Of a stretch of DNA of 21,691 nucleotides, positions 3,981-20,440 are shown piece by piece. Each line of letters begins with the position of its first letter. Positions within the stretch are counted from its first letter, which is position 1. Under the pieces are notes generated by a model. That model had not been told where the DNA came from, made no database searches, and saw only the letters and a program-made list of their open reading frames with translations. The position numbers and the translations under genes are program-made. Source of the stretch: a virus; the IMG/VR virus record IMGVR_UViG_3300002242_000339, positions 1 through 21,691 of that record. The stretch is one strand, 5' to 3'.

Positions 3981-4433
3981 ATGGCAACTGCAATTTTTAA
4001 ACTTGTCGCCGGATCGTATCACGATTGGAAGGGCGACGTACAGCGCGGATCACTATTGATCAGTGAGAAGCCGTTGAACAAGACGCACTACACGAAGTTC
4101 AAGCAAATCCAGATCGAGCAACTTTCGCCGGATGAAGTTCCAGCATACGAAGCGGCAATTGATCGTTTCTGTCAAGTGAAAGTCTTGATGGAGCACGGCA
4201 AGTACAATGTCGTTGGTTGTGCCGGTATCCCAATCCTACGCGATTGGACCACGGAAGCCAAAGCCAAGTCGGCGGCAACCAAAGAGCGCGCCAAGCTCGA
4301 CGAGCGCAAGCGCAATTTCCTACGCATGCTTGATCGGGTTCGTCCGGTCATTGAGCGCGAGGAAGAACACAACTCGTTGGAGCTTGAAGAAGAATTCGAC
4401 AATGAAGAAGACGGCGAAGGCGGCCACGAGTAA
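3981..4433 (+). CDS. Hypothetical head-module protein with acidic helical tail
   Basis: A 150-residue protein with AGGGAG about 12 bases before ATG 3981. The N-terminal 35 residues look beta-rich (MATAIFKLVAGSYHDWKGD) and could dock on another head or neck component. The middle is mixed. From about residue 90 the chain is a long charged helix, likely a coiled coil, ending in a strongly acidic tail of Glu and Asp. The stop codon overlaps the next ATG by one base (TAATG at 4431-4435), so it is translationally coupled to the Maf-like gene. It may therefore act with that gene product, but no family is recognised. Confidence 0.6.
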   Translation: MATAIFKLVAGSYHDWKGDVQRGSLLISEKPLNKTHYTKFKQIQIEQLSPDEVPAYEAAIDRFCQVKVLMEHGKYNVVGCAGIPILRDWTTEAKAKSAATKERAKLDERKRNFLRMLDRVRPVIEREEEHNSLELEEEFDNEEDGEGGHE

Positions 4434-5167
4434 TGAACGCAATCGCTCCACTCTATGTTGCACCAACCAACCCCCGTCTTTGGGACGGGGAAACGGTTGT
4501 GCTTGTCGGCAGTGAGGCGGCGGCTCGTGATATCGCGAAATTGAGCAAAGTCGGCAAGGTTCTCTGTGTGGGATCCTTGTTCGGCCTTGTGCCTCAAGAT
4601 CACGTCGACGGCTTCTTTTTTGGCGATCGCCAGCAATTGAACCGTTCGAAGAATATCATTCGCGGCATTGAAGATTGTCTTTTCTTCACCACGGATCAGA
4701 ATGCGCGCCGGTATCCAAACCTGAATGTCTTAACTCAACGCAACGTCGGTATCACTCTTGACGAGTCTCGTATCTGCTTCAACGGAAGCGATCAAGGCGC
4801 GTTGCTGAATCTCGCGGTCATCTTGGGAGCGAAGACGATTGTACTTGCCGGTTTCAATTTCCTGAATGGAGCCAACCGCAAGGCGATCAAGAAGATTCAC
4901 GAGTGCGTTCGTCACTTGAACCGGTTGAAGGTTCGCGTGATCTCAACGGATGAAGAAACGGCGCTCGAGTGCTTCGAGTACATTGAGTTGCGTCGGGTAA
5001 TCACTCCGGAAGACAGCCACCCCGAGGCAATGAAGATTCTGCCGACGGTAGCGATTGACGCGGAAGACGAGCCGGTCTACAATGAAGACGCGCCGGTCGA
5101 TGCGGCCGACGATGATCTCGACTTCATCGACGACGACGACGAGACTCCATTCCCAACACCAAGTTAA
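4433..5167 (+). CDS. DUF115/MptE/Maf-like glycosyltransferase-type protein
   Basis: A 244-residue protein. Residues 17-27 (WDGETVVLVGS) match the first strand and nucleotide-loop area of the DUF115/MptE-like fold, where the usual GGGPS loop has become GSEAA. The segment near 60-66 (GFFFGDR) matches the 'aD..f.gD' strand. Residues 118-143 (GSDQGALLNLA, then LGAKTIVLAGFNF) match the hallmark 'NSGxxAINLAxxLGAKxIxLxGFD' block. Known members include the Campylobacter-type Maf proteins that add pseudaminic or legionaminic acid to flagellin Ser/Thr, and MptE. Many phages carry copies of unknown role. Residues 205-240 are Asp/Glu-rich and the chain ends TPFPTPS. Its place inside the head operon, coupled to the previous gene, suggests it acts on virion proteins. 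The fold call is firm; the activity is inferred and the altered loop leaves catalysis in doubt. Confidence 0.65.
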   Translation: MNAIAPLYVAPTNPRLWDGETVVLVGSEAAARDIAKLSKVGKVLCVGSLFGLVPQDHVDGFFFGDRQQLNRSKNIIRGIEDCLFFTTDQNARRYPNLNVLTQRNVGITLDESRICFNGSDQGALLNLAVILGAKTIVLAGFNFLNGANRKAIKKIHECVRHLNRLKVRVISTDEETALECFEYIELRRVITPEDSHPEAMKILPTVAIDAEDEPVYNEDAPVDAADDDLDFIDDDDETPFPTPS

Positions 5168-5176
5168 GGTATCATC

Positions 5177-5566
5177 ATGGCAATCGAGGTCACCGTAGAA
5201 AGCGTTAAATGCATCTTGAACACGAACTTGACGGACGCGCAAGTATTGTGTTTCATTGAAGACGCAACCTGTTACGTCGAATCCCTTCCGGAATCGATCG
5301 AGGATGCGTGCGGTACCAAGATTGCCAATGTTGTCACCAAGTACTTAGCGGCTCACCTTGTTTCGTTCAGAGACCGGCAACAGATCGAGACCGAGACTTT
5401 AGACGCGGAAGACAAGTACGCCGACACGTTTGGCGTTGGCTTGGATTCTTCCTTATACGGCCAACAGGCAAAGCGATTCGACTCTACCAATCAGCTTGGC
5501 AACGATGACGCTAAAGCCGACGGTATCACTCCAACGCTTCGCTTTAAGGCAATTGGAGTGTGTTAA
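5177..5566 (+). CDS. Head-tail connector (adaptor) protein
   Basis: A 129-residue protein. It begins with a helix and 'LTDAQVLCFIEDAT', followed by a helical segment with IANVVTKYLAAHLVSFRDRQ around residues 48-67, then a loop containing FGVGLDSSLYGQQAKRFD. This is the pattern of gp6/YqbG-like adaptor proteins that form a ring under the portal, which end helical bundles with a 'T.YG..A..LD..G' stretch. Position supports it: directly before the head-closure and neck genes. The stop codon abuts the GTG start of the next gene. The chain ends GVC; the role of the Cys is unknown. Confidence 0.7.
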   Translation: MAIEVTVESVKCILNTNLTDAQVLCFIEDATCYVESLPESIEDACGTKIANVVTKYLAAHLVSFRDRQQIETETLDAEDKYADTFGVGLDSSLYGQQAKRFDSTNQLGNDDAKADGITPTLRFKAIGVC

Positions 5567-6559
5567 GTGCCAAGCATAATCGATCTAGCGTTGATCGACC
5601 CGACCGTCTATTGGGAGCCGTTCACTAACGAGGACGGATACCCCGACGGTGGCAAGATCGCGAGCGCGCCGGTTGAGATCCTTTCTCGTTGGGTTGAGCA
5701 CTGGCACAACCGGTTGCAAGCCGACGAATCTGAAATCTACATTGGAGCCGACGTATTGACGGGTGGTTTCCTTCTCTTGGGGAGCCTTGACGAGCTTTTA
5801 CCGGAAAACGCGGCCGAGTACCCACCCACGGCACCATTCGCGCTTACAGAGTACACAGGGCGTTGGCAGTTCAACGACGACCTTTTAGCCGAGTTCGGTC
5901 CAAACTTCGCACAGAATTCAGGGACTTCTGAATTCATTACCGGCGTAAACGGCGGACAGGCATTGAGCAACAATACCGGCGTTGTCTTCGCGAATGATAT
6001 CGAAACGGTTGGAGATGTGGAATTCAACGGATCGAATGCGTTCTCGATCTGCTTTTGGTTGCACCTTCAATCGCCAAGCATTGATGCAAGCGCGAGTCCG
6101 GCCGCAAGTCCGAGCTTCGACACGATCGTCACAATGTCGATCGGTGGATTGACGATTGAGATCGGTATCGATGAAATCCGGATTGGAAGTGGTGTTTGGG
6201 AAGTCAGCGGCTTGGATGGCGAGTGGAATCAGATTTCAGTTGTCAGCAAGGCCGGTGGTGACTTGCGCTTGTTCGTTGCTGGTGTTGAGGTTGATCCGAC
6301 AACGCCACAGCCGTCGCCGCTTTCTTCGATCGATGAAACGGCTTCAATTTCTTGGTTCAACGACGACGACTCTTATTTCGGAATCGACGAGCTGATCACC
6401 TATTCGGAAAGCTTGGATGCGTTTGGCGTTCAAATGATGGCAGTTCGAAACCCCTTGAACTACAAGCTTGCCAAAGAGATTATCCGGACACAGTTCGCGC
6501 GTAGTTCCGACGGCAAGCGTCGAGTTCGTCGGGTTGTGCTGAAGGGGAACCCGCAATGA
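5567..6559 (+). CDS. Head-closure (stopper) protein with inserted LamG-like domain
   Basis: A 330-residue protein starting at GTG 5567, immediately after the previous stop. Residues 1-75 (TVYWEPF, then PVEILSRWVE, then EIYIGADVLTGGFLLLG) match short phage head-closure proteins, which normally run about 110-130 residues and end soon after this LG motif with a 'P..A.EI.R' helix. Here residues 294-330 (NPLNYKLAKEIIRTQF...) look like that displaced end. The roughly 200 residues between read as a concanavalin/LamG jelly roll (FNGSNAFSICFWLHL, WNQISVV, LRLFVAGVEV, FGIDELITYS). A Ser-Pro-Ala loop lies at 169-184. So a sugar-binding type domain seems to have been inserted into a neck protein and would face outward. 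The boundaries are estimates. Confidence 0.7.
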   Translation: MPSIIDLALIDPTVYWEPFTNEDGYPDGGKIASAPVEILSRWVEHWHNRLQADESEIYIGADVLTGGFLLLGSLDELLPENAAEYPPTAPFALTEYTGRWQFNDDLLAEFGPNFAQNSGTSEFITGVNGGQALSNNTGVVFANDIETVGDVEFNGSNAFSICFWLHLQSPSIDASASPAASPSFDTIVTMSIGGLTIEIGIDEIRIGSGVWEVSGLDGEWNQISVVSKAGGDLRLFVAGVEVDPTTPQPSPLSSIDETASISWFNDDDSYFGIDELITYSESLDAFGVQMMAVRNPLNYKLAKEIIRTQFARSSDGKRRVRRVVLKGNPQ

Positions 6560-7005
6560 GGATCAGAGTCGAGGGAGTAGAGCGAACGAAGTTCAACATG
6601 CAACGGACGGTTCGCCAGATCTATAAGGGTGTTCAGCTTGGAACGGTTGCGGCCGCGAAGATCATCCAAGAGAAATCGAAAGAGAACGCGCCGGTGGACA
6701 CCTCGAATCTTCGAGCGTCCCACTATGTCTATTTCAATGGCGGGGCGGTTCCGCAATCGAGGATCCTGCCAGCGGCCGGAGTCGACGTGTTCCGCCTAAA
6801 GCAAGCTCATGCGCACGCCATGTCCCGAGCAATCACAGAGATCCGAGACGACAAAACGGTTCGAATTGGTGCGTACGCATTTTATGCTCTTTACAATGAG
6901 TTGGGACACAAGTCCAAGGCTCGATTCATGCAGAGAGCCGTTTCAGAGAACACGAACAACATTTTGAGATTGGCGGCGTTAGGTGGTGCAAATGCAATTA
7001 AGTGA
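6556..7005 (+). CDS. Neck protein, HK97 gp10-like tail completion
   Basis: A 149-residue protein whose ATG overlaps the previous stop (ATGA at 6556-6559). It opens with a short strand (MRIRVEGVERTKFN), then a long helix (AAAKIIQEKSKENAP), the VDTSNLRASH motif at about 53-62, a variable loop, a strand with VRIGAYAFYALYNELGHKSKARFMQRAV, and a last helix. This order (long helix, APVDT..LR.S, G..Y..Y.E.G....A.F) is the signature of the HK97-gp10/minor capsid family, which bridges head and tail. The position between head closure and tail terminator fits. Confidence 0.85.
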   Translation: MRIRVEGVERTKFNMQRTVRQIYKGVQLGTVAAAKIIQEKSKENAPVDTSNLRASHYVYFNGGAVPQSRILPAAGVDVFRLKQAHAHAMSRAITEIRDDKTVRIGAYAFYALYNELGHKSKARFMQRAVSENTNNILRLAALGGANAIK

Positions 7006-7474
7006 AGTACCAAATTCACCCGAGCACGATTTCGGGTTGTTCCTCGAGGGCGACAAGATTGGTTCGATCGGCAAAAAGCGCGGTTGGGCAATCTACTTTG
7101 GATTTGATCCGGATTCGCCGAAGAACCTAATCAGTATCTCGAGCACGTCGTCGATCATGCCAATGTCACCAATCAACCAAGTTGGTCCGGACAACGACAC
7201 GGGGCTCGTTGAGTATCCGCAATTGGGCGTTCGGGTTCTGTCGGCTACGTACGAAGACGGCTACAAGAAGTCATACCAGATCATGAGCGCGTTCCGGAAT
7301 CGCGTCGACCTTTCCGGCGAGTATTGGAAGTACCTGAACTTCAAGGCGCTAGGGGTTCCGCTTTATTTGGGTCAAGACGATAAGGGCCGACACGTATTCT
7401 CAACGGATTATTTCTCAGTAAGAACGCCGATAGTTGAAGGGGCTTCTGAATCCGCTTCACCGTCGCCTTCTTGA
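6992..7474 (+). CDS. Tail terminator/completion protein with Ser-Pro tail
   Basis: A 160-residue protein. The ATG at 6992 lies 6 bases after AGGTGG (6980-6985) and overlaps the end of the neck gene; an in-frame codon at 6983 is less likely. By size and position between neck and tail tube, this is the tail terminator or completion protein that caps the tube. The N-terminus (DFGLFLEGDKIGSIG) fits the usual 'D...fL...iG' opening, then beta strands (GVRVLSATYEDGYKKSYQI) and a C-terminal strand (YFSVRTPIVE). The chain ends in ASESASPSPS, an added low-complexity tail with the 17-base string GCTTCACCGTCGCCTTC (7454-7470) that also occurs at 16614-16630. A 96-base gap with the ribosome site of the next gene follows. 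Confidence 0.65.
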   Translation: MQLSEVPNSPEHDFGLFLEGDKIGSIGKKRGWAIYFGFDPDSPKNLISISSTSSIMPMSPINQVGPDNDTGLVEYPQLGVRVLSATYEDGYKKSYQIMSAFRNRVDLSGEYWKYLNFKALGVPLYLGQDDKGRHVFSTDYFSVRTPIVEGASESASPSPS

Positions 7475-7570
7475 TGCAATGCGAAATCACTACGCAAAGC
7501 CAATAAATTGTCACGACGGGCAAAGAGCCCTAATTTCAAATAACGACTAAAACAAACGGAGGTCGCCAAA

Positions 7571-7972
7571 ATGTCAGCGCCACAAGTATCAACCGGAATC
7601 AGCTTTACCTTCGCGACCTCCGGCTTCACTGCAAATTTCATCGACGTAACGCCACCCAACAAATCGCGGGAAGCCTTGAACGTTTCCCACATGTTGACCA
7701 CGGGTTACCATAAGTATATCGCGGCCAAGTTGATCGAGGGCGGTTCGCTTTCGGCAACGATCCAATACGATGCCGGTCAAGAACCGCCTTTGGATGAAGA
7801 TCCCGAAGTCATCACCATTACGTATGCCGACGGCTCAACGGAAGATTTCGTTGGCTTCATGACCGCCGAGTCACCTGCGGCCGCATTGGAAACTGTGATG
7901 ACTGCCGACGTGACCTTCAAGGTTGCCGACGATATCACCTACACGCCAAGCGGTGGCGCGTCACCAAGTTAA
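7571..7972 (+). CDS. Major tail (tube) protein
   Basis: A 133-residue protein with a strong ribosome site, GGAGG at 7558-7562, spaced 8 bases before ATG 7571. It shows the short tube-protein pattern: residues 35-60 with SHMLTTGYHKYIAAKLIEGG, then a beta pair (SLSATIQYDAG), a strand ITITYADGSTEDFVGFMTA, and a final TADVTFKVADDITYTPS. The wording 'GG.L...I.......P......I.I....G' is typical of siphovirus tube proteins that polymerise into rings around the tape measure. It ends GGASPS, a short version of the Ser-Pro tails seen in neighbours. A terminator lies just downstream, consistent with high expression. Confidence 0.82.
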   Translation: MSAPQVSTGISFTFATSGFTANFIDVTPPNKSREALNVSHMLTTGYHKYIAAKLIEGGSLSATIQYDAGQEPPLDEDPEVITITYADGSTEDFVGFMTAESPAAALETVMTADVTFKVADDITYTPSGGASPS

Positions 7973-7988
7973 TCGGTAGTACGGTTGG

Positions 7989-8027
7989 GGCCGCGCGATC
8001 GTTCCACGAGCGTAGCGGCCTTTTTTT
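7989..8027 (+). terminator. Rho-independent terminator after the tail tube gene
   Basis: GGCCGC (7989-7994) pairs with GCGGCC (8015-8020), with further inner pairing (CGATCG region with CGAGCG, one mismatch), followed by seven T residues (8021-8027). It is 17 bases behind the tube gene stop. Together with the capsid terminator it marks the two most abundant structural genes. A run of eight C residues follows at 8032-8039. Confidence 0.85.
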
Positions 8028-8072
8028 ATCTCCCCCCCCTAGAATCCTTAACGCTGAAAGGAAAAATGACGA

Positions 8073-8555
8073 ATGAGTGAAGAAACCAAAACAGACGACG
8101 ACTTGAAGATCCTGTCGTTTGAAGAAATCATGCAGGCCGACGACTTGGACACCGAAAAGGTTCCAGTACCCGAATGGGGCGGTGCGGTTTTAATGAAGAC
8201 AATGAGTGGTAAGAATCGAGACGATTACATTCAGATTCTTCAAGGACGCATGGTTGGTACCGGCAAGGGTCGCAAGCTTTCGAATTATCGCGGGTTGTCG
8301 GCAAGTTTGCTTCAACAATGTTTGATCAAGAAAGACGAATCGCCGCTTTTTACTGCCGCGCAAATCAAAGATCTGCAAGGCAAAAACGGTGCTGTAATCA
8401 GCCGACTTGTTGAGAAAGCCCAAGAAATGAACGGCTTGACTGACGACGAGGTCGAAAAGATTTCGGGAAACTCCGAAACAACCAAGAACGAAGACGATGG
8501 CTTAACGTCGCCGGAAGACTTGGTTGCACCGTCCGAGAATCACAGCAACGACTAA
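8073..8555 (+). CDS. Tail assembly chaperone G
   Basis: A 160-residue protein with AAAGGA about 10 bases before ATG 8073. The motif KVPVPEWGGAVLMKTMSGKNRDDY (residues about 29-52) is the mark of gpG-type chaperones ('V.VPEWGG.V.vr.mtg..R'). The C-terminal third is helical, then Asp/Glu/Asn-rich. The gene sits between tube and tape measure, as in all siphoviruses. A slippery heptamer at 8465-8471 lets some ribosomes enter the -1 frame to make the longer GT product. G and GT bind the tape measure and tube subunits during assembly and are not in the mature virion (family knowledge). Confidence 0.85.
   Translation: MSEETKTDDDLKILSFEEIMQADDLDTEKVPVPEWGGAVLMKTMSGKNRDDYIQILQGRMVGTGKGRKLSNYRGLSASLLQQCLIKKDESPLFTAAQIKDLQGKNGAVISRLVEKAQEMNGLTDDEVEKISGNSETTKNEDDGLTSPEDLVAPSENHSND
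8465..8471 (+). other. -1 ribosomal frameshift site GGGAAAC
   Basis: The heptamer GGGAAAC reads in frame as G GGA AAC, the X XXY YYZ form needed for -1 slippage, and is the same class as lambda's GGGAAAG. The -1 frame is open from 8444 to the stop at 8813-8815, so slippage here gives an uninterrupted GT fusion. Confidence 0.85.
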
Positions 8556-8815
8556 ACTCTAAGGAATTCGCTGAACAGATCGCCTATGATGCCATTGAAA
8601 TGCCGGAGCCGTATCGTACGGATTGGCGCTTTGCTTTTCTTGGATCAATCCTTGTTAGCCTCTTAGGGAGCGGCAAACGACAAATCACTCCAAAGGATAT
8701 TCACGAACAAATGACCCAATACTTCGACAGCTTGCCTCACCAAACGCACGGCGACAAAGTTGAGGAAAAATTGAAGGGTTGGTTGTCCGCGAATAGGACG
8801 AGCGCCAAGGATTAG
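8471..8815 (+). CDS. T extension of tail assembly chaperone GT (via -1 frameshift)
   Basis: This is the -1 frame portion of the GT fusion. After codon 133 of G, the frame continues from CTC 8471 for 114 residues, giving a product of about 247 residues from ATG 8073. The extension has the gpT pattern: LNSKEFAEQIAYDAIEMPEP, then DWRFAFLGSILVSLLG and a charged helical end. There is an in-frame ATG at 8600, but no convincing ribosome site precedes it, so frameshift expression is preferred. The stop lies two bases before the tape measure ATG. In lambda the T domain contacts the tail tube protein. Confidence 0.8.
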   Translation, partial: LRNNQERRRWLNVAGRLGCTVRESQQRLNSKEFAEQIAYDAIEMPEPYRTDWRFAFLGSILVSLLGSGKRQITPKDIHEQMTQYFDSLPHQTHGDKVEEKLKGWLSANRTSAKD

Positions 8816-8817
8816 GA

Positions 8818-10986
8818 ATGTCGCAAAAGATCGGTTCAATTTATTTCGATGTGATCGCCAGAACAACGCAAGTTGATACGGCGCTAGAAAACACGATTCA
8901 GAAAGTCGATACGCTATCTGCGAAGATGAACAAGATAGCGAACGGTTTGACGAACGTGGGTCGCAAATTAACGACTGCCGTCACACTGCCAGCGATTGCG
9001 CTTGGCGGTGCGGCGGTAAAGTCGTTTGCGGACTTCGATCAAGCAATGAATCAGTCGGTCGCCATCATGGGCAACGTCAGCGATGCATTGCGTAACGAGA
9101 TGACCGAAGCGGCAAAGGAAGTTGCGAAGACGACGACTTTCTCAGCCAAGCAAGCGGCGGACGCGTATTTCTTCTTGGCTTCTGCTGGTTTCACTGCCGA
9201 GCAATCGATCGCGGCATTGCCTCAAGTCGCTACCTTTGCACAAGCCGGTATGTTCAACTTGGCGACCGCGACCGACTTGGTTACGGACGCACAAAGCGCG
9301 CTTGGATTGAAAAGCGAAGACGTGGCCGAGAACATGATGAACATGAAGCGCGTGAGTGACGTTCTGGTGAAAGCCAATACACTTGCGAACGCGTCCGTGA
9401 GTCAATTCGCGTTTTCCCTTACTCGTGAAGCCGGTGCGGCTATGAAGGCATTCGGTATCGAGGTTGAGGAAGGCGTAGCCGTCTTGGCGGCGTATGCTGA
9501 TCAAGGTGTCAAGGGTGAGCTTGCTGGTAACACTTTCAGCCGAGGCGTTCGCTTGCTTACGAAAGCGGCAGTTGGAAACGCCGACGCATTCAAAAAGGCC
9601 GGTGTTGAGATCTTCGATGCCGACGGGAAGATGAAGAATTTTGCGGATATCGTCGAGGATTTGACGGATCTACTTGCGGGAATGAGCGCGCAATCTCGAA
9701 TCGCTCAATTGGAAACTCTTGGATTGAAGGCAAAGCAACAAGGCGCGATCCTGCCGTTGCTTGGGACGGCCGACGCAATTCGAACCTATCAAAGAGAGCT
9801 CGAGAATGCCGGTGGAATCACCGAGGAAGTCGCGAACAAACAGCTTGAGTCATTCAAGTCTCAAGTGAAGCTCGTCAAAGACAACGTCAATTTGTTGTTC
9901 ATCGAACTTGGCGAGCGTCTTGCGCCAGCCGTAAAGCTTCTTGCCGACAATGTCGACGGACTCACGGATTCGTTCCGAGAGCTAGACGGTGCTGAACAGC
10001 AATTGTTGATCAATACGGTTGCGTTTGCGGCGGCGATCGGGCCGGTGCTTTTGGTTGCCGGTGGATTGTTGAAGGCATCCATTGCTATCGGTTCCGCGAT
10101 TTCAGCTTTGGGTGTTGGTCTTATTCCGTTGATCGCCACACTTGCGGCGGCGGCGGCGGCTGGTTTCTTGGTTGGTGCGGCCATGATTGAAATCGCCGAT
10201 GAAGTACAAAAGGTTTTGATTGAATTTGGATTGCTCGAGGAAAAGGTCGTCAACAACAAGGGATTCGTTGAATCGATTGTCGAATGGACTCAAGCATTCT
10301 TGGTTTTCGTTCAGGAAGTGAAATTCGGTCTCAAGCTTTTCTTCGATTTGGGGCAAAATCTTTTTGCTGAAATGCTACTTGCGACCAAGCGGTACTTCGA
10401 TTTTGTCACGGGCAACTTCACGAATCTTTTCGCGTTGATCTCCGGCGATATCTCGATCTCTCAATTTCTCAAAAGAACCGGCCAAGAAGTGACTGGAATG
10501 TTTGACAGTATCACAGGAAGCTTCCAAGACGTGTTCGAAAAGAACAGGGCGGCGCGTGACGCGGCTATTGAGGGGATCTTGCAGAAGGAAGGCAAGACAA
10601 TCGAGTCTCAGATCAAGAAGACGGCCCAAGCGGCTGAGAAGGCCGTAGAGAGCGCGGCCGCTAATGCCGTTACGGACTTTTCGGATATCGTCGATTTCGT
10701 CAATGATGACGCGAACATGCCGCAAGGCGCAATGGATCGTTCGGTAATTCCCGAGGGATTGACCCCGCAATTTGCAAACGCGATCGAGGCCGGTAGCGTT
10801 GAAGCTTATCGGATCCAAAACAATATCGTTTCCCCCGAGGAAGCAATCCAGAAGGATCAGTTGGAAGTTCAAAAGAAGCAACTCAAGGAACAAAAGATGA
10901 CGGCAAAGGACGCTAAGAAGACAGCCGAAGCTTCAGCAACGATTGCCCGTACCTTGAGTGGCATTAACACGGTTGGGATTCTCTAA
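8818..10986 (+). CDS. Tail tape measure protein
   Basis: A 722-residue protein. The N-terminal helix-rich part (LTNVGRKLTTAVTLPAIALG, then KSFADFDQAMNQSVAIMGN) and the TTTFSAKQAADAYFFLASAG block are the tape-measure (PhageMin_Tail) signature. Residues 397-461 hold two or three hydrophobic, Ala/Gly-rich segments, typical membrane-inserting parts used in DNA entry. Residues 590-715 are charged and coiled-coil-like. If about 1.5 angstrom per residue applies, the tail is roughly 105-110 nm, an inference from the family. No peptidase or lysozyme domain is visible. The ribosome site is weak (TAGGA), so coupling to GT is likely. Its stop overlaps the next start (TAATG). Confidence 0.92.
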   Translation: MSQKIGSIYFDVIARTTQVDTALENTIQKVDTLSAKMNKIANGLTNVGRKLTTAVTLPAIALGGAAVKSFADFDQAMNQSVAIMGNVSDALRNEMTEAAKEVAKTTTFSAKQAADAYFFLASAGFTAEQSIAALPQVATFAQAGMFNLATATDLVTDAQSALGLKSEDVAENMMNMKRVSDVLVKANTLANASVSQFAFSLTREAGAAMKAFGIEVEEGVAVLAAYADQGVKGELAGNTFSRGVRLLTKAAVGNADAFKKAGVEIFDADGKMKNFADIVEDLTDLLAGMSAQSRIAQLETLGLKAKQQGAILPLLGTADAIRTYQRELENAGGITEEVANKQLESFKSQVKLVKDNVNLLFIELGERLAPAVKLLADNVDGLTDSFRELDGAEQQLLINTVAFAAAIGPVLLVAGGLLKASIAIGSAISALGVGLIPLIATLAAAAAAGFLVGAAMIEIADEVQKVLIEFGLLEEKVVNNKGFVESIVEWTQAFLVFVQEVKFGLKLFFDLGQNLFAEMLLATKRYFDFVTGNFTNLFALISGDISISQFLKRTGQEVTGMFDSITGSFQDVFEKNRAARDAAIEGILQKEGKTIESQIKKTAQAAEKAVESAAANAVTDFSDIVDFVNDDANMPQGAMDRSVIPEGLTPQFANAIEAGSVEAYRIQNNIVSPEEAIQKDQLEVQKKQLKEQKMTAKDAKKTAEASATIARTLSGINTVGIL

Positions 10987-11954: not shown

Positions 11955-11963
11955 GGGGAAGCA

Positions 11964-14900
11964 ATGCCAAATCTACTCACAGATGAAGCCCACCAAAGAA
12001 TGTCCAAGTCCGTTCGCTTCACTGAAGCGTTCAAGCGGCAATCCATGGGCGGACAGATGCAATTGCCAGCGCGGCCTATGCAAGAGTTCGTCGTCGTCCG
12101 GATCACTGCCGATTTGACCGGTGGTTTCTATGAAGCGATCGAGATATTTTGGGATAACGACAAGCGTTGGATTGACGACGAGGATCAAAGCAGAGACTTC
12201 GATTGTCCAACTATTATCATGGAGCGGAACCAGCGCGAGAACATTCGCATTGGTTCGATCGTCAAAATTGTTTACTCCGGAGAATTCGACAACAGCGAAT
12301 CATTTCAGCAATTCACTTCCAAGTGGTGGTTCGAATGGAATGGAGAGGAAAACGATTTCGTCGGCCGTATCATTTGGGAATCGGACGGATCGCGAAAGCT
12401 TCTAATTGAAGGCGGAACGGTTCAGGTAGGTCGCGAGGTTGTCGACGTCGACGGCATTCAACTTGGCTTGGAGAATAATGTCGTCACTTGTGACGGCGAG
12501 AGTGCGAGCGCGGATATCATTGGCGAGGGATCCGACGGCGTTGATCCTTCCGAGGAAGGTTGCTTTGGCTTTGAGCGTTTTTGGGTAGAGATCAAGCTAC
12601 GGTATGAATGTGCGAATTGTCCGGACTTTTGGGTTTACGAGATCAATCCGACAGTTCAGCGCGGTACCGAGTGCGAGCGTTGGGAGGTCACCGAGGAATG
12701 CGCCGAATTCACTGAGATCATTTGGCGGCAATTCATTGGATACACGAAAGCCGAGGATTGGATCCAGCAATACAGCGGCTCGATTATGCATGAAGGGTTT
12801 ACGCCGTGGCCCTTGATTTCAAACTTCGATCCAAGTCAAAGACAGGTGATTTACCATGAATTCGGAACCGTATGTTGGGCAACGATCGACAATCTTCCGG
12901 AAGACGCATTCAAGACCTGTTGCTTCAGCGCGAGCCCGAGCCCGTCGGAATCACAGAGCCCGTCGCCTTCTCCGAGTCCGAGTCCGTCACTGATAGAGAG
13001 CGGGTCGCCTAGCCCGTCGCCTTCACCTTCACCGTCTCCTAGTCCTATCGGGTCACCGTCGCCTTCCGCGTCGCCAAGCCCACAAGCCTCGATTCCTTGC
13101 GACTGCGTAAAGCTTGTCGGATTCGGTACCGAAGGCGTAGACGGGGAATACGAAGGCGTTGCATTGGCCGAAGACGGCACTTGTATTTTTGAGAACGAAA
13201 ACGGTTTCCGCGTTCTTTGGTCCGGTGGTGTTTGGTATGTCGGCAAGTCCGGCAACAGCAATATCTATTACACGGCCGGAGTTCCACCGGAAGGACCGGA
13301 TGAAGACGACGTCCCTGTTTCGGGGAATTGGTCGCTTGGCTTCAACGGCCAAAATCCGGTTGGTAGTTCTCAGGTTTGTTTTTCGGTTTCGCCAAGCCCG
13401 TCGCCATCACCGTCGCCGTCGCCATCGCCATCACAGTCGCCATCGCCGTCGCCGTCTCCATCGCCGTCGCCTAGCGAACAGCCTTCTGATTCACCTTCCG
13501 AGCAACCGAGCCCCAGCGAACAGCCGTCGCCGAGCCCACAGCCGTCGCCGAGCGAACAGCCGTCGCCGTCGCCTTCTGACGATTGCCCGTGCTTCGACGG
13601 CGAGCATTGCTCGACGGTTGGTGGGCCGGTTAGCATTGTCGGTGGCTTCTTGGTTCAGGAAATCACGACGATTTGCACGACATACAATTGCGGCCGCGTT
13701 TGCTCGATCGAGGAAACCAAGAGCACGAAGACGATCGGCGAATGGTGTTGTGAGAGTCCAAGCACCGAGGGAAGCCCAAGCCAACAGCCTTCACCAAGTC
13801 CAAGCCCGATACCTTTCCCAAGTCTTAGTGGTAGCGCGTCTACCGACGCGTCTGAGAGTGTTTCGGCTAGTGCCTCAGAAAGTGCGAGCGAGCCGGAAAG
13901 CCCCTCCGAGAGCGCCAGCCCGTCACCGTCAGTATCCCCAAGCCAAAGCGTAAGCGCATCGACTAGCTTCAGCGCATCACCAAGCGCAAGCGAAAGCTCC
14001 AGCGCGTCACCTTCCGCGTCTGGCGGCGGAGGCGGTGCTTCCGAATCTGGATCACCTAGCGTTTCAATTAGCGCGTCGCCTTCAATTGATTGCGCGCCAT
14101 GCGTTGAGGTTTCCGGTGGTGGTTCAGGCCTAGCAAACGGAATATACAAACAAGGCGATCCCCCAGCGAACGAAGATTGTTATTGGCAAAAAGACGGCGC
14201 GATTTACGAGATCACGGTTATTGGTGAGGTTTGGATTATCCGCGATCCGTTTGTCACTCTGTACCAAAGCATTGACGGCGGAAACACTTGGACTGTTGTT
14301 GATGGAGATGGACCAGCGCCGTCGGTTAATGAGGTAGATTGTCCGTCAGAGTCCGCGTCGGCATCACCGTCACCAAGCGTTTCGCCTTCTCCGGAAGTTT
14401 CACCGTCGCCTTCCGCGTCTCCGATCCCTTCAATATCTCACGATTGCGAATCGCTTTGCATCAAGGCGAGCGGCTTCCTTGCTGACGTCAACAATGAGTT
14501 CACAGGCGTACCGGATCCGACGACCGGCTGTTGTAGGTATGAAGACGGCTTTGGTAACGGAATACGATGGAGTGCAACTTACAACACTTGGATCCTCGAG
14601 GCGAGTGGCGGCGGACAGTGGGATCTATTCCCAGATCTTTCGGACGCATGCGCGGATCCGATTGGAGATTGGATACCGCATTCAACGGAACCAGACGGCG
14701 GAACGACGGCGATTTGTTCCTCGATCAGCCCGAGCCCTGAATCAAGTATAACCCCTAGCGCGTCGCCGGATTGTGATTGCCAGCCTTGTATCCAAGTAGC
14801 GTTTGCTGGCGATCCGGTTGCAAATGAAGAATATGAGGTTGACGGTTGCACTGAGCCTTGCCAATGGATAAGTGCGTTTGATTACACGATTACTTGGAAT

Positions 14901-15956
14901 GAGGGCGGCGACTTTTGGGGGATCAGAAATGACTCCGGAGTTCTTCTTTATGTTATCGCCGGTACCGCCGACACGGCCCCACAGGGTTCATGGACTTCGA
15001 TCGCTCCTGCCAACAACCCCGCGCCATTGAGTCGCGCTTGCTTGGAAAGCCCAAGCATAAGCCCAAGTGTTGACGCAAGCCCGAGCGCGGAACCAGCTTG
15101 CGACGCATGCTTACTTGTTGATGGGTTTGGTTCTTCGGGGGTTGACGGGGAATATGAGTCAATCGGGGCAGACTCGAGCGGTGCTTGTGTTTACGTCAAA
15201 GGCCTTTTCTCCATCGAGTATGTTGGAGAATGCCCGACTGCTGGATATTGGGTGATCTTCAACGGAAGCGGCGATCGTCTTTATGAATCTTGGGGTGGGG
15301 CAAACTGCACAGAGCCACCGATCGGCCTTGTTTGGTCTGCTGTTGACGGTGAAGATCCAATTGGTGAAGTGATCGCATGTCCAAGCCCGTCACCAAGCCC
15401 GTCACCGAGCCCGAGCCCGAGTCCGAGCCCGAGCCCGAGCCCGAGCCCAACGCCAAACCACGGGTATGTTCTTTGTGAAAGCCCGTCACCTTCTTTTGGT
15501 TGCGTCCATGCTAGTGCCGCACCAGCCGGTTGCCCTATCGAAACTTGGCAAGGCGCTCCGCCGTGGGACCCTAACCCAGACACTGGACTTTACGCACAAT
15601 ATCGTATTCAATTCAGTATCCACACCGCAGACCACAAGGACAATTGCGATTGTTCAAACGCAGAATCAAACCCTAGTGACAAAGACATTGACGTCATAGT
15701 CGACGCACTGTCTGGGGCTGATTGCAGTTGGATAGGCTCTGATGCAGGAACGCCCGTGAATCTTTATTTGTTCAATGGGAATTGGGAATTTGAGACCGAT
15801 TATCCTGATAGTGCCCCCTGTGTTGGAATCGGTGGGTTGACGCCCGATTGCGCAATTTGGGAAGATCAGTCAGTGTGTGATGATTGCGGTCAAAATTTCA
15901 CCGATTCGATAAGTGCCACTTATTCAAACATAAGCATAACGCCGGTGTTGCCATAA
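11964..15956 (+). CDS. Giant Ser-Pro/Cys-module tail protein, likely receptor binding or adhesin-like
   Basis: A 1330-residue protein. Residues 1-320 form a non-repetitive head, probably tail-attached (FVVVRITADLTGGFYEAIEIFW; later Cys pairs CANC and CC). The rest alternates Ser-Pro linkers with Cys-bounded modules. Five modules are related, at 13098-13379, 14091-14342, 14445-14717, 14772-15041 and 15099-15380; each begins with a Cys pair, contains a 'GEYE/NGIY' start, an aromatic 'I.W...WxI' core and a 'LY.S' or similar strand, then ends in Cys. A sixth, at 13584-13751, is Cys-rich and different. The C-terminal domain (15498-15956) has more Cys and a Trp/Tyr-rich beta pattern. It looks like an extended stalk of modules for binding the cell surface. 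The placement after the distal tail gene fits a tail fibre or side fibre. The function is inferred. Confidence 0.7.
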   Translation: MPNLLTDEAHQRMSKSVRFTEAFKRQSMGGQMQLPARPMQEFVVVRITADLTGGFYEAIEIFWDNDKRWIDDEDQSRDFDCPTIIMERNQRENIRIGSIVKIVYSGEFDNSESFQQFTSKWWFEWNGEENDFVGRIIWESDGSRKLLIEGGTVQVGREVVDVDGIQLGLENNVVTCDGESASADIIGEGSDGVDPSEEGCFGFERFWVEIKLRYECANCPDFWVYEINPTVQRGTECERWEVTEECAEFTEIIWRQFIGYTKAEDWIQQYSGSIMHEGFTPWPLISNFDPSQRQVIYHEFGTVCWATIDNLPEDAFKTCCFSASPSPSESQSPSPSPSPSPSLIESGSPSPSPSPSPSPSPIGSPSPSASPSPQASIPCDCVKLVGFGTEGVDGEYEGVALAEDGTCIFENENGFRVLWSGGVWYVGKSGNSNIYYTAGVPPEGPDEDDVPVSGNWSLGFNGQNPVGSSQVCFSVSPSPSPSPSPSPSPSQSPSPSPSPSPSPSEQPSDSPSEQPSPSEQPSPSPQPSPSEQPSPSPSDDCPCFDGEHCSTVGGPVSIVGGFLVQEITTICTTYNCGRVCSIEETKSTKTIGEWCCESPSTEGSPSQQPSPSPSPIPFPSLSGSASTDASESVSASASESASEPESPSESASPSPSVSPSQSVSASTSFSASPSASESSSASPSASGGGGGASESGSPSVSISASPSIDCAPCVEVSGGGSGLANGIYKQGDPPANEDCYWQKDGAIYEITVIGEVWIIRDPFVTLYQSIDGGNTWTVVDGDGPAPSVNEVDCPSESASASPSPSVSPSPEVSPSPSASPIPSISHDCESLCIKASGFLADVNNEFTGVPDPTTGCCRYEDGFGNGIRWSATYNTWILEASGGGQWDLFPDLSDACADPIGDWIPHSTEPDGGTTAICSSISPSPESSITPSASPDCDCQPCIQVAFAGDPVANEEYEVDGCTEPCQWISAFDYTITWNEGGDFWGIRNDSGVLLYVIAGTADTAPQGSWTSIAPANNPAPLSRACLESPSISPSVDASPSAEPACDACLLVDGFGSSGVDGEYESIGADSSGACVYVKGLFSIEYVGECPTAGYWVIFNGSGDRLYESWGGANCTEPPIGLVWSAVDGEDPIGEVIACPSPSPSPSPSPSPSPSPSPSPSPTPNHGYVLCESPSPSFGCVHASAAPAGCPIETWQGAPPWDPNPDTGLYAQYRIQFSIHTADHKDNCDCSNAESNPSDKDIDVIVDALSGADCSWIGSDAGTPVNLYLFNGNWEFETDYPDSAPCVGIGGLTPDCAIWEDQSVCDDCGQNFTDSISATYSNISITPVLP
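12927..13097 (+). repeat. Ser-Pro linker A
   Basis: A low-complexity coding stretch of alternating Ser and Pro codons (TCG/TCA/AGC/AGT with CCG/CCA/CCT) with a few Glu, Ile and Gly, between the N-terminal domain and the first Cys module. The DNA uses mixed codons, so selection acts on the protein as well as on repeat expansion. Confidence 0.85.
13380..13577 (+). repeat. Ser-Pro linker B with SEQPSP units
   Basis: A long pure Ser-Pro run, interrupted once by Gln, followed by repeats of the type SEQPS(P/D). It links module 1 to the divergent Cys-rich module. The antisense strand reads as Gly-Asp repeats, a shadow only. Confidence 0.85.
13752..14090 (+). repeat. Ser-rich linker C
   Basis: The longest linker: Ser-Pro pairs, then a Ser-Ala-Glu segment of SAS/SES type, then a five-Gly run and more Ser. 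It is the most Ser-rich region of the window and is mucin-like in composition. Confidence 0.8.
15381..15450 (+). repeat. Ser-Pro linker G
   Basis: An uninterrupted run of Ser-Pro codons written largely as AGCCCG/AGTCCG units, the most DNA-repetitive of the linkers. It separates the last repeat module from the C-terminal domain. Slippage or assembly error is possible here. Confidence 0.85.
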
Positions 15957-16453
15957 TGATTACAAAAGAAATTTTGTTGAGTAAAAGATGCTGTTATTGG
16001 AATGACCCGATCAATCCAAGCGAGCTTGGCGAAATGGTTGACCTAGAAGGCATACTCCCGATAACGATTGCCGGATTGTTTGAATTGAAGTGCATACCTG
16101 AAAGTGATAAACTTTGGGTGTTCCTGCGACTTATGGATCGTGCTCAAAGACGATTGTTTTCAAGGCGAGCGATGCTTGCGTCAATTGAATTTTGGGAACC
16201 GACGCGTGATATTCTGAACATTTTGGTTTCTGATGACCCTAGAGCATGGAGATATGCGCGAGATTTCATGCGCTTCAATGATGACGCGCGAGAAGCTAGA
16301 GAATTCTCTAGGGAATTCCTCAAGAGCGAAATGGTAAAGAACGCTTACTTTATACTTTCAGGTAAAATCGTAGATTGTTCAGATTATATGAGCGAGTTTG
16401 ATCTTGATGGATCTTTACCCAATTGCCTTGATTGCCGCAACGGAGAACAGTGA
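15956..16453 (+). CDS. Hypothetical protein following the giant tail gene
   Basis: A 165-residue protein. The ATG at 15956 overlaps the giant gene's stop by one base (TAATG), which decides the start over an in-frame codon upstream at 15884. It is mostly helical, with many charged residues (RDFMRFNDDAREAREFSREFLKSE around residues 104-127) and two Cys at 12-13 (KRCCYW). The chain ends near LPNCLDC, a short CxxC motif like that of the following peptide. The family is not recognised. Coupling to the giant protein suggests a chaperone or accessory factor for it, such as a tail-fibre assembly protein; this is only positional inference. Confidence 0.55.
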   Translation: MITKEILLSKRCCYWNDPINPSELGEMVDLEGILPITIAGLFELKCIPESDKLWVFLRLMDRAQRRLFSRRAMLASIEFWEPTRDILNILVSDDPRAWRYARDFMRFNDDAREAREFSREFLKSEMVKNAYFILSGKIVDCSDYMSEFDLDGSLPNCLDCRNGEQ

Positions 16454-16457
16454 TGAT

Positions 16458-16643
16458 ATGAGCACGATTGTATTCAAAGACTATCAAGGCGAGTCGATCA
16501 AGGTTGACGGCAAGTGCTATTCATACATTGGTGAAGTCGAAGAAGACGTCACGAATGAGCCCGAAGACGTTGAAAACAATTACCTAGACTGCTTGGATTG
16601 CTTGGATTCTTTGGCTTCACCGTCGCCTTCACCGTCGCCTTAA
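16458..16643 (+). CDS. Small acidic peptide with CLDC motifs and Ser-Pro tail
   Basis: A 61-residue protein starting at ATG 16458, four bases after the previous stop, with CGGAGA about 11 bases upstream. The first 30 residues look like a small beta unit (IVFKDYQGESIKVDGKCYSY), followed by an acidic stretch, two tandem LDC units (YLDCLDCLDSL) and a tail of ASPSPSPSP. The tail DNA shares the 17-base string GCTTCACCGTCGCCTTC with the tail-completion gene. No family is recognised. The N-terminal 'KDYxGExIxVDGKCY' pattern could be a small capsid- or fibre-associated module. Confidence 0.6.
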   Translation: MSTIVFKDYQGESIKVDGKCYSYIGEVEEDVTNEPEDVENNYLDCLDCLDSLASPSPSPSP

Positions 16644-16776
16644 ACTAAAAAGGAAAATCAATCTATTCGGCGAAAGGTGCTGACTGGCCGTAAATAAATA
16701 AATTATGTGGTTTTATATCACGGCAAAACCGGCGCACTGCTGAAAGCGCGCCACAAAAACGGGAGAGAGTGAAAAA
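16644..16776 (+). promoter_or_regulatory. AT-rich gap before the accessory gene block (possible promoter)
   Basis: This 133-base gap is the only sizeable one between 8815 and 20440. It holds an AT-rich stretch (TAAATAAATAAATTATG, 16690-16706) and a small hairpin (GGCGC 16731-16735 with GCGCC 16748-16752) without a T run. GGGAGAG lies about 9 bases before ATG 16777. A promoter for the glycosyltransferase block is plausible, but I see no well-spaced -35/-10 pair. Confidence 0.25.
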
Positions 16777-17193
16777 ATGAAAAGTGAACCATTTACGCAA
16801 TTGGAGATCGAAGCAAGTTACGACGGGCTTCGACACGGCAAGACCGTCCGTGAGTGCGCGTTGATTCATGGGCGCGGTATCTGGATGGCCTCCGAGCTTC
16901 GACGCGGGTTGTACGATCGCTACGGTGAAGACTTGATCCGGAAGACGATCGACAATTTCGTCCGGCCTAGCACCTTGACGATCGTCAAGAAAGCGACCGA
17001 GAAAGCAAAGAAGGTTTTGTCCGAGCCGTTCGATATTGAAACCAGCGACGAGGAAGCAGAGCGGCGGCAAAAGATTTGCAACGCATGCCCGAAACAAGAG
17101 CAAGGCCGGTGTACTTTTTGTGATTGCCCGACTGAGGATCTTGTACGCTTCCGTTTGGTCGACTGTGAGTTGGGGGCTTGGAATGATGCATAA
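16777..17193 (+). CDS. Cys-rich zinc-ribbon-like protein
   Basis: A 138-residue protein. Residues 8-50 form a helix-turn-helix-like segment (LRHGKTVRECALIHGRGIWMASELRR). Residues 98-135 carry Cys101, 104, 112, 115, 117 and 130 in a 'CxxC..7..CxxCxC....C.LGAW' layout, similar to small zinc-ribbon ends found in phage proteins (DUF6171-like wording, ending in 'G.W'). It could bind zinc and perhaps nucleic acid or a protein partner. It overlaps the next gene by 11 bases and heads the glycosyltransferase block. The exact function is unknown. Confidence 0.6.
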   Translation: MKSEPFTQLEIEASYDGLRHGKTVRECALIHGRGIWMASELRRGLYDRYGEDLIRKTIDNFVRPSTLTIVKKATEKAKKVLSEPFDIETSDEEAERRQKICNACPKQEQGRCTFCDCPTEDLVRFRLVDCELGAWNDA

Positions 17194-17755
17194 GGGCGGA
17201 CACATTGACGCGAAATCGCTTAGACGCGGAACGGTTGCGGTTGTCGGAAACTCTGATTTAATGCTTGCGAATCCCATGGGGCGCGAGATTGACAGTCACG
17301 ACTTCGTGATCCGATTCAATCGAGCATGGCCCAATATGGCGAATCAACGAATGTTCACCGGAAGAAAAACGACTCACATGAGCTTGGTTATTCGACGCGG
17401 TTACGGACCAATGATCAAACGAAACCCAAGGATTCAGTTTTTCCTTCCAATGCCGCCACCAGTGAAATTCGTACCGGATGAATGCAAGAAATTGCCTTGT
17501 ATTGCGTCTGTCGTCGTTGCTGAGACGCAATTAGCCATGAAGACGCGCCGTCGGCCGTCTAGTGGCATGACGGTGCTTACATGGCTCCTGAGAGAGTCTG
17601 ACTGTCTCAAGATCAGTATTTTTGGGATGGACGGCATGCAGAGCGGCAAATGGTACGAAGACAAGCCCCATTGGGTTGGTCACGACAAGAAAGCCGAAGC
17701 CAACTATCTAAAAGAGATCCAAAACGACAAACGAGTAGTGTTTTACCAGCCATGA
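17183..17755 (+). CDS. GT29 (sialyltransferase) family protein
   Basis: A 190-residue protein; the start is ATG 17183 (or 17186), overlapping the previous gene in another frame. All sialylmotifs are visible. Motif L spans 18-48 (VAVVGNS... GREIDSHDFVIRFNRA), with a following TGRKTTH at 59-65. Motif S is 125-148 (PSSGMTVLTWLL ... ISIFG). His163 stands for motif III, and H167xxxxE172 is motif VS. The family transfers sialic acid from CMP-sialic acid to glycans. The N-terminal part is short: no membrane anchor or signal peptide, so it would act in the cytoplasm. The Cys pair typical of animal enzymes is not conserved in the motifs. It overlaps the next gene by 4 bases. Fold and family are firm; the real sugar substrate is unknown. 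Confidence 0.85.
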   Translation: MMHKGGHIDAKSLRRGTVAVVGNSDLMLANPMGREIDSHDFVIRFNRAWPNMANQRMFTGRKTTHMSLVIRRGYGPMIKRNPRIQFFLPMPPPVKFVPDECKKLPCIASVVVAETQLAMKTRRRPSSGMTVLTWLLRESDCLKISIFGMDGMQSGKWYEDKPHWVGHDKKAEANYLKEIQNDKRVVFYQP

Positions 17756-18039
17756 CCGACCAAGAACAAAAACAATTCCTCGACGGCCTTGAGGACGGCT
17801 TAGTGCCGAATGAGATAATCGAGGGCCGCACGAACGGCATTAAGATTTTGCAATCACTCCGGAAGCGAGTCGGCAACGGAACTTTCCGGACGATCATGCA
17901 CCGGCTTGTGATGCCAAACCGAATGGCGCGCAAACTGGAAAAGGAATGCGGCTACGTTGAGACGCAAGAGCAATACAAAGACCTTGAGCGCCGAATTCTT
18001 CAATCCCTTCAGTCTATCCGGTTGCAGGTGAAAAAGTGA
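17752..18039 (+). CDS. Small helical hypothetical protein
   Basis: A 95-residue protein. The ATG at 17752 overlaps the GT29 stop (ATGA), so this start is preferred over in-frame codons upstream. The sequence is helical and charged, with a GLEDGLVPNEIIEGRTNGIKILQSL segment (about 12-36) reminiscent of a helix-turn-helix, then a basic part (FRTIMHRLVMPNRMARKLEKE) and a final long helix. I recognise no family. It links the two glycosyltransferase genes by tight overlaps, so it belongs to the same operon. It overlaps the following GTG start too (GTGA). Confidence 0.6.
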   Translation: MTDQEQKQFLDGLEDGLVPNEIIEGRTNGIKILQSLRKRVGNGTFRTIMHRLVMPNRMARKLEKECGYVETQEQYKDLERRILQSLQSIRLQVKK

Positions 18040-18689
18040 AGAACATTACAGTTTTGGCGGTGAAGTCCGTCACGGGTTCAGCGTTTATTGATCAGCTCGA
18101 AGAAATGTTGATTGAACGATTTGGTGCTGGTGAGATCGATATGCGCCGGTACCTTTGCTCAAATGATTATTGGGACAAGTGGCGGCAAGCTTCGAATTTG
18201 ATCACTTGGGGGATCAAGTGGAAAAGCGATCGGTACCGGAAGAAAACCCGAGCCTACCCGAAGCAGAAAAATACGCTGTACGTCGAGAACGGTTTGATGA
18301 AGCAAGGCGTTGGCTTTTATGTCGATCACCGTGGCTACTTCTGCGATTCGTCGATGGTTCTCGAGGAAACAAACAAGTCGCCGTATACAGCGGCCGAGCT
18401 TTCTTGGCTCGAGTCATTTATTAAGCGTTCATGGAAATGGGGACTACGGGAAGACGACGGCGGATCCGGACGGTCCAATCTTGGTGGCGTTGCAGACAAA
18501 CAACGACGCGCCAATGCGACACCACTTTCCGGCCGCACGGGGAACCAAGGGCCGCGAGTGCCGCAAACTGAAAATGCTGGAGCTCTGCCGCGAATACCTT
18601 CCGTACGATCGAGAAGTCATCATACGGCCGCATCCAAAAGAGCGATCGCTACCAAAGGATTTCGAGATGCCGGACAACTGGCGCGTTGA
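18036..18689 (+). CDS. KpsC/KpsS-like transferase, N-terminal half (frame breaks near 18441)
   Basis: The frame starts with GTG 18036 (GTGA overlap). Its first 135 residues look coding: MKNITVLAVKSVTGSAF, then LYVENGLMKQGVGFYVDHRGYF, ending at SWKW (18429-18440). Beyond this the frame becomes Arg/Gly-rich with no pattern, while the next frame carries the matching C-terminal half. Skipping one G in GGGG (18439-18442) joins both halves into about 391 residues. 'YVENG.....GFYVD..GYF' resembles the segment before the donor domain of capsule-synthesis transferases. A programmed +1 shift, a sequencing error or a real mutation are all possible. The frame's own stop at 18689 would yield a 217-residue protein. 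Confidence 0.6.
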   Translation: MKNITVLAVKSVTGSAFIDQLEEMLIERFGAGEIDMRRYLCSNDYWDKWRQASNLITWGIKWKSDRYRKKTRAYPKQKNTLYVENGLMKQGVGFYVDHRGYFCDSSMVLEETNKSPYTAAELSWLESFIKRSWKWGLREDDGGSGRSNLGGVADKQRRANATPLSGRTGNQGPRVPQTENAGALPRIPSVRSRSHHTAASKRAIATKGFRDAGQLAR

Positions 18690-19212
18690 AAACAATGGAC
18701 CTATATACCCGTTGCTTCCGTCGATCTCCGGATTGGTTGCGGTGAATTCGACGGTTGCGACTGAAGCCATGGGGATCAACATACCGATCGCCACTCTTGG
18801 CAACGGTTCGTTCGACAACACCGGCGCGACCCTTGATTGCTCCAAGGATCCGTCATTGATCGCCGGAGTCCTGTCGGCTGAGATCGATCGAGAAGCGCGA
18901 ACGCGTTACTTGTGCGAGATCTTCAGAAATCACCAAGCGCCAAGAAAGAAGGCAAATGTTGCCGACTTTCTTAATCGATCGACTTCGATTGCAACTTGGA
19001 TGGATAATCTTCACGACACAGATGGAAAACCTTCATACCGAAACGAATCGGAGGACAAGAAAGAGGACACACAAATCGTGCCGAAAAGGCCAAATGCGAA
19101 AAGACGGCGCAAAGCCGTAAAGTTGAAAACATGCGTTTATTGCGCAAAAGATACAAGAGATACGGGTTGCGCACGTTGTAAGTGCCAACACTGCAAACAA
19201 AGGAACTGCTGA
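18442..19212 (+). CDS. KpsC/KpsS-like transferase, C-terminal half (+1 frame)
   Basis: This half is in the +1 frame relative to 18036. It holds the recognisable donor-domain motifs of capsule-synthesis (Capsule_synth, Kdo-transferase-like) proteins: GPILVALQTNNDAPMRHHFP near the start, VIIRPHPKER (RPHP motif), and GLVAVNSTVATEAMGINIPI followed by LGNGSFDNTG. Known KpsC/KpsS enzymes transfer Kdo from CMP-Kdo. An independent start in this frame (ATG 18310 or ATG 18511) has no good ribosome site. The last 45 residues form a basic and Cys-rich tail (CVYC, CARCKC, C..C). A GTG at 19078 with AGAGGA upstream might make this tail as a separate 44-residue protein. Cell role: probably glycan or glycoprotein decoration. 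Confidence 0.6.
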   Translation, partial: DYGKTTADPDGPILVALQTNNDAPMRHHFPAARGTKGRECRKLKMLELCREYLPYDREVIIRPHPKERSLPKDFEMPDNWRVENNGPIYPLLPSISGLVAVNSTVATEAMGINIPIATLGNGSFDNTGATLDCSKDPSLIAGVLSAEIDREARTRYLCEIFRNHQAPRKKANVADFLNRSTSIATWMDNLHDTDGKPSYRNESEDKKEDTQIVPKRPNAKRRRKAVKLKTCVYCAKDTRDTGCARCKCQHCKQRNC

Positions 19213-20137: not shown

Positions 20138-20440
20138 ATGCCAGACGAGAACAGCGCATCAAGCACGGATACGGATCACCGCCTCGAGGTTAGTTCGTAT
20201 TTGAGAGAGCTTGTTGCAGGTCAAACCGAGATGAAAGAACGCTTGGGTAGACTTGAAAACATTGTTGACGGCGACGAGCCGAAGAACATTGCCGGTATCG
20301 GTGAGCGCGTTCGTCGGCTTGAAGGGAGTGTCGCCCTCGTCTGCAAGGCGGTTTGGTGCGTTGGCATCGCCGCCGTGATTGGATTCGGCAAGGCAGTTTG
20401 GCTTGTCGTAACTTCAGGAAGCCACACACCAAGTCCATAG
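20138..20440 (+). CDS. Holin- or XhlA-like coiled-coil membrane protein
   Basis: A 100-residue protein with AAAGGGA about 7 bases before ATG 20138. Residues 15-66 form a coiled coil (LRELVAGQTEMKERLGRLENIV..., RVRRLEG), and a single hydrophobic segment lies at 68-92 (ALVCKAVWCVGIAAVIGFGKAVWLVV). The chain ends GSHTPSP. Size, coiled coil and one C-terminal membrane segment match XhlA/holin-type lysis proteins. It is the last + strand gene before a strong terminator. No endolysin is visible nearby, so the lysis role is inferred. Confidence 0.6.
   Translation: MPDENSASSTDTDHRLEVSSYLRELVAGQTEMKERLGRLENIVDGDEPKNIAGIGERVRRLEGSVALVCKAVWCVGIAAVIGFGKAVWLVVTSGSHTPSP

Follow-up and report, generated by a model that had tools for sequence, protein, structure and literature searches.

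The stretch analysed here (the window, 21,691 bases) was the first part of the IMG/VR virus record IMGVR_UViG_3300002242_000339, which was 44,761 bases in length. It carried a siphovirus-like late gene block on the plus strand, with genes for a major capsid protein (MCP; DUF6260 match, 6.8e-17), a tape-measure-like protein (PhageMin_Tail match, 7.3e-32), a tail terminator and a tail tube protein. Ser-Pro-rich (SP) segments were present on several of the late proteins, and genes resembling glycosyltransferases were found in the same window; a first-pass annotation had combined the two into a possible system for glycosylation of the virion. Three lineages, all of one phage group, were compared, namely the window phage (of which L008 was a copy), L004/L005/L017, whose MCP was ~80% identical to that of the window, and L262. 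The SP segments and the proteins that carried them or ended in a similar motif were as follows (lengths in amino acids, aa):

5567..6559, plus strand, head-closure protein; weak Laminin_G_3-like insert (2.4e-4, under the curated cut-off); gene position conserved
6071..6121, plus strand, 17-aa SP loop in the head-closure protein, from the sequence
6983..7474, plus strand, tail terminator protein (Pfam Phage_tail_terminator_6, 1.2e-7)
7442..7471, plus strand, C-terminal tail ASESASPSPS of the terminator, 10 residues, from the sequence
7571..7972, plus strand, major tail (tube) protein (phrog_158, 1.4e-4)
11964..15956, plus strand, giant tail protein, 1330 aa, 60-62% identical to those of the relatives in the N-terminal domain
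12924..13091, plus strand, first SP linker (linker 1) of the giant protein, at a site also kept in L005/L017 and L262
13377..13589, plus strand, SP linker 2, with an (SSPA)n pattern in L017
13770..14084, plus strand, region of SP linkers 3-5 (13770-13829, 13893-13955 and 14052-14084)
14343..14438, plus strand, SP linker 6, by S/P density
14715..14759, plus strand, SP linker 7, by S/P density
15372..15461, plus strand, SP linker 8, by S/P density
16458..16643, plus strand, small Cys-rich open reading frame (ORF) ending in ASPSPSPSP, from the sequence; no PHROG match
20138..20440, plus strand, small protein with a hydrophobic segment (by reading of the sequence), ending in SHTPSP

The SP segments were real and were conserved at fixed sites on the head-closure, terminator and giant tail proteins in the three lineages. 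The contigs of the closest relatives stop before the place of the GT29-like and KpsC/S-like genes described below and retain the SP segments. The head-closure protein shared 37-40% identity with the proteins of the relatives, and its SP loop lay at the same site in each; L005 had a loop of ~26 aa and L262 one of 41 aa. At the end of the terminator, the counterpart of the short window tail was an SP tail of ~64 aa in L262 and an SP linker of ~71 aa in L005, where it was followed by an extra C-terminal domain of about 150 residues. In the giant protein, a conserved N-terminal domain was followed by Cys-containing beta domains of ~95 aa with SP linkers between them, and the eight S/P-dense linkers summed to 256 aa. 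SP runs set small beta domains apart in all giant proteins compared, and the linker positions were constant across the lineages while the pattern shifted, e.g. (SP)n versus (SSPA)n. Five copies of the beta domain lay within window 13095-15371; the domain model had a pLDDT (predicted local distance difference test score) of 87 and gave no PDB fold match and only E about 0.1 in BFVD, a missing match being uninformative here. The first-pass annotation was thus right in placing SP segments on the giant protein, the head-closure loop, the terminator tail and the 16458 peptide, but not on the tube protein, which had only GGASPS at its end. The tube C-termini of the relatives were GGASAS and GGGGSGSGGAS, and the conserved feature of the tube end is Gly/Ser, not Ser-Pro.

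All six Ser codons were used in the linkers, with a Ser codon entropy of 2.31 bits inside versus 2.53 bits outside, and Ser and Pro codons were almost as mixed as they were outside. This mixing indicates selection on the protein (composition, flexibility) rather than simple DNA slippage. The conserved SP segments probably serve a small siphovirus group as disordered, extended linkers and tails on its virion proteins. Within the giant protein, the linkers would space the small beta domains, which could then reach out as a tail adhesin, while the SP run of the terminator may act as a linker or tail and that of the head-closure protein as an exposed loop, with domains gained or lost behind these two segments. 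The L005 terminator, which runs on into its extra domain, is an instance of domain gain behind an SP run. The transferase genes would then form a separate layer, with the 4433 product probably non-catalytic, the GT29-like product probably working, and other sugar-active genes besides. If the segments are spacers only, they offer a clear case of low-complexity linkers at fixed virion sites with domains swapped behind them.

Short S/T-P tags were also observed at protein C-termini, a tag being defined as [ST]P[ST] or P[ST]P among the last six residues of a called gene; the motif was widened to Thr after the sequences had been inspected, and the result is descriptive. Tags were found in 5 of the 25 late plus-strand genes, versus 0.13 expected (within-protein shuffles; 0/20,000), and in none of the 27 other genes. 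The tagged genes were those starting at 4433, 6983, 7571, 16458 and 20138, with tag sites at 5153-5164, 7442-7471, 7952-7969, 16614-16640 and 20426-20437, respectively. Across 233 viral loci, the background rate was 12 of 2,137 ORFs, three of the 12 being in L008, and no other locus had two tags. None of the 12 L005 genes was tagged, indicating that the tag is lineage-specific. Two gene pairs had identical tag DNA: CACCAAGTTAA was shared by the genes ending at 5167 and 7972, TTCACCGTCGCCTT by those ending at 7474 and 16643.

Three genes in the window had been regarded as ulosonic-acid-type transferases:

17183..17755, plus strand, GT29-like glycosyltransferase, 190 aa (PF00777, 2.9e-12)
4433..5167, plus strand, GT42/MptE-fold protein of the head-tail module, called Maf/DUF115-like in the first-pass annotation (phrog_4603 'alpha-2,3-sialyltransferase', only 3.5e-8)
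18036..19212, plus strand, KpsC/S-like (Capsule_synth) region in two overlapping frames (18036-18689 and 18310-19212)

The GT29 assignment was borne out by the significant PF00777 match. According to the sialylmotif definitions in PMC8433944, the protein possessed motifs L (GNSDLMLAN..IDSHDFVIRFN), S (PSSGM) and VS (H-x4-E, read from the sequence), and KWYED near VS fitted motif III, (H/y)-Y-(Y/W/F/h)-(D/E), only in part. The best solved relative was pig ST3Gal-I (2wnb; phmmer 2.1e-5), and a profile made with the L013 and L015 relatives gave an alignment over residues 16-187 (3.4e-4). Motifs L, S and VS were shared with the GT29 sialyltransferases pig ST3Gal-I and ST8SiaIII, whereas the window protein was short and without the motif L Cys. 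Searches for GT29 relatives by peptide pattern yielded none in viral contigs and one weak match in named phages. Judged from its sequence, the GT29-like product probably works, and it stands out as the likeliest active enzyme.

The 4433 product was transferase-like in fold but not in its motifs. Its AlphaFold model, with a pLDDT of only 63, had CstII (1ro8, 1.3e-4) as the top Foldseek match; in VIA-align, Cst-I was matched at Z 10.9, archaeal 6-HMPDK and human sialyltransferases also scored high, and unrelated folds reached Z 4.9 at most. The SGPS nucleotide loop and HW-x2-H were both absent from the window, L005 and L262 proteins of this family, and both present in the canonical members L011, L013, PAJU2 ORF010 and P1 PmgO. 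The catalytic base in CstI and CstII is a His (PMC4202792), and the His of HW-x2-H would be the equivalent of CstII His188. Thus, the window protein and its orthologues resembled GT42 (CstI/CstII), archaeal MptE, phrog_4603, P1 PmgO and PAJU2 ORF010 in predicted fold and in virion-block place, but differed from the canonical GT42/phrog_4603 members in both motifs. Since the gene has kept its position in all three lineages, the product is probably a useful protein in which catalysis has been lost. The chances appear about even that a GT42-fold protein has here been taken over as a structural or assembly part of the head-tail region, with no chemistry: the conserved place together with the loss of both motifs, the acidic C-terminal extensions (the window protein has an acidic C-terminus with PTPS as its last residues) and the label 'structural protein' that PAJU2 ORF010, of the same family, carries in its annotation argue for such a role, while the canonical members, having all motifs, are probably enzymes, and the fold model has a pLDDT of only 63. 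With both motifs gone from the 4433 family, caution is advisable before a phage gene is named an active sialyltransferase by family label alone. PAJU2 ORF010 (L260 3992-4561) and P1 pmgO (L261 3474-4136, 'putative morphogenetic') are both GT42-like with catalytic-type motifs intact.

The KpsC/S-like gene at 18036-19212 was likewise recovered in part, by a Capsule_synth match, although it occupied two frames, not one. PF05159 matched the second (3') frame only (5.3e-8; 33.1 bits versus a curated cut-off of 20) and gave 8.3e-8 on the read-through of both frames, which come into register only with a +1 shift at the GGGG run close to 18440. The split may be a mutation or an assembly/sequencing error, and a second copy of the frameshift stretch was sought and none was found. 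Compared with KpsC/KpsS-type Capsule_synth proteins, the profile match in the C-terminal half was alike, whereas the coding region in two frames and a C-terminal Cys-rich extension were different. A PDB sequence search with the fused protein gave chance matches only, and KpsC-like proteins in named phages gave only one weak match. With the 4433 protein devoid of its motifs in every lineage seen and the KpsC/S-like gene frame-shifted, the proposed set of three ulosonic-acid-type transferases was not upheld. That the phage encodes transferases was confirmed by the GT29-like and split Capsule_synth-like genes, as well as by genes beyond the window:

record 35939-36475, outside the window, Sulfotransfer_4-like protein (9.2e-13)
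within record 36868-37755, outside the window, phrog_1962 glycosyltransferase (6.9e-18)
record 37817-38599, outside the window, GT2 (Glycos_transf_2, 1e-10)
21576-22049, minus strand, APS_kinase-like P-loop protein (1.2e-13), of which the window holds 21576-21691

The first three of these adjoin one another (record 35939-38599) upstream of the terminase. The APS_kinase-like protein and the sulfotransferase could suggest sulfation; the typical APS kinase residues look altered. CMP-nonulosonate synthetase/NeuA (PF02348) and NeuB (PF03102), genes of the nonulosonic pathway that the first-pass annotation had proposed as a check, gave no match in the 44.8-kb, possibly incomplete record.

The question was then considered across phages, that is, whether SP segments occur together with TRANSFERASES. 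Run scans of viral contigs for TCN-CCN and AGY-CCN gave 15 SP records, and the 32 controls were non-SP-coding hits of the same scans, most TCN-CCN hits being not SP-coding. GT2 was found in 3 of the 15 SP records versus 4 of the 32 controls (Fisher p 0.66; per-base p 0.37), the records being few and incomplete. MptE-like, GT29 and Capsule_synth genes were found in none of the 15, and no match to these three or to GT2 was obtained in the four long SP records (37-77 kb). GT42-like genes without SP runs were present in the head-tail module of L011-L015, most of them with GT29-like neighbours, and in the P1 and PAJU2 regions. Hence the two traits, expected by the first-pass annotation to occur together, were separate in other phages; since the records are incomplete, separate occurrence argues that a link, if there is one, is not obligate, and does not tell against every kind of link. 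In L012-L015, the clusters between capsid and head-tail genes contained GT42-like, GT29-like, heptosyltransferase-like (by reading) and methyltransferase-like genes. SP runs were also carried by virion proteins of unrelated phages, including the baseplate wedge subunit of L088 (phrog_232, 4.1e-97), tail-fibre-like proteins of L032 and L202, a Hoc-like/tail protein of L184, and virion-like proteins of L156 and L164. The SP runs of L088, L032/L202 and L184 lay between or after virion domains as in the window phage, but were on single proteins, whereas the window phage had them on several proteins together with C-terminal tags.

Several observations weigh against the SP segments being linkers and tails only. 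A linker role leaves the short S/T-P tags of the five late proteins unaccounted for, because nothing comes after them; the intact GT29-like gene sits downstream of the tail genes; the association test was small, with incomplete records; and the mycobacteriophage glycan sites reported in PMC12619734 resemble the window tube and terminator tails. That paper, citing Freeman et al. 2023, places the mycobacteriophage virion glycans on capsid and tail-tube subunits, at their C-termini; virion glycosylation in these phages is also covered in PMC12691614 and PMC10568470. The window phage is like the mycobacteriophages in encoding glycosyltransferases and in having candidate acceptor C-termini, including that of the tail tube, but glycans have been detected on mycobacteriophage particles, whereas the window phage is uncultured and known from genes alone, with different transferase families and long SP linkers. 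Virion glycosylation by phage is therefore already described, the statement that no phage system of this form was known was too strong (PMC12619734), and the window system is a possible variant. The idea of glycosylation itself was sound and has precedent; its specific form, a three-transferase ulosonic system, was unsupported. It seems unlikely, though worth retaining, that SP tails and linkers are O-glycosylated on Ser by the GT29-like enzyme, perhaps helped by the glycosyltransferases and the sulfotransferase encoded beyond the window, with donors from the host and in the manner of the mycobacteriophage C-termini. The intact GT29-like motifs, the sugar-active genes elsewhere in the record, the excess of C-terminal tags and the mycobacteriophage precedent are in its favour, whereas the lack of NeuA and NeuB family matches in the record, the separation of SP segments from transferases in other phages, the untagged L005 genes, the loss of motifs in the 4433 protein and the split of the KpsC-like gene are not. 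A more elaborate version, a multi-protein code in which S/T-P tags and SP linkers are given an acidic or sulfated glycan by the GT29-like and other transferases, is still less probable. Should the tags prove to be sites of glycosylation, the mycobacteriophages would no longer be the limit of phage virion glycosylation, and its acceptor motif would be readable from sequence.

That the transferases act elsewhere, on the host envelope (receptor masking, progeny release from debris) or on a soluble glycan, is a serious possibility, although short of an even one. Capsule_synth relatives have surface polysaccharide as their substrate, and GT29-like, GT42-like and heptosyltransferase-like genes cluster in SP-free phages, both in agreement with such targets, whereas placement in the virion block is atypical of seroconversion genes, the usual place of which is at prophage ends. 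DNA hypermodification as the target was considered and rejected, no thymidylate-synthase family gene being found in the record. Lytic growth of P1 does not require PmgO, the GT42-like homologue (PMC10695390), a fact also consistent with a target other than the virion. It is improbable that the SP-coding repeats matter mainly as DNA, whether as products of slippage or as sites where recombination shuffles domains; the SP-coding DNA does contain short tandem arrays of 6, 12 and 18 bases and the two gene pairs have identical ends, but the use of all six Ser codons in the linkers, at an entropy near the outside value, argues for the linkers and tails proposed above.

No tRNA genes were found in the record, and an MCP scan of genome contigs for a prophage or host gave none. 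Zn-cluster-like proteins in named phages gave one weak match only. A small Cys-rich protein, probably metal-binding, is encoded at window 16777-17193, adjoining the GT29 gene, and matched weakly phrog_13558 and Roseobacter phage CRP-143.

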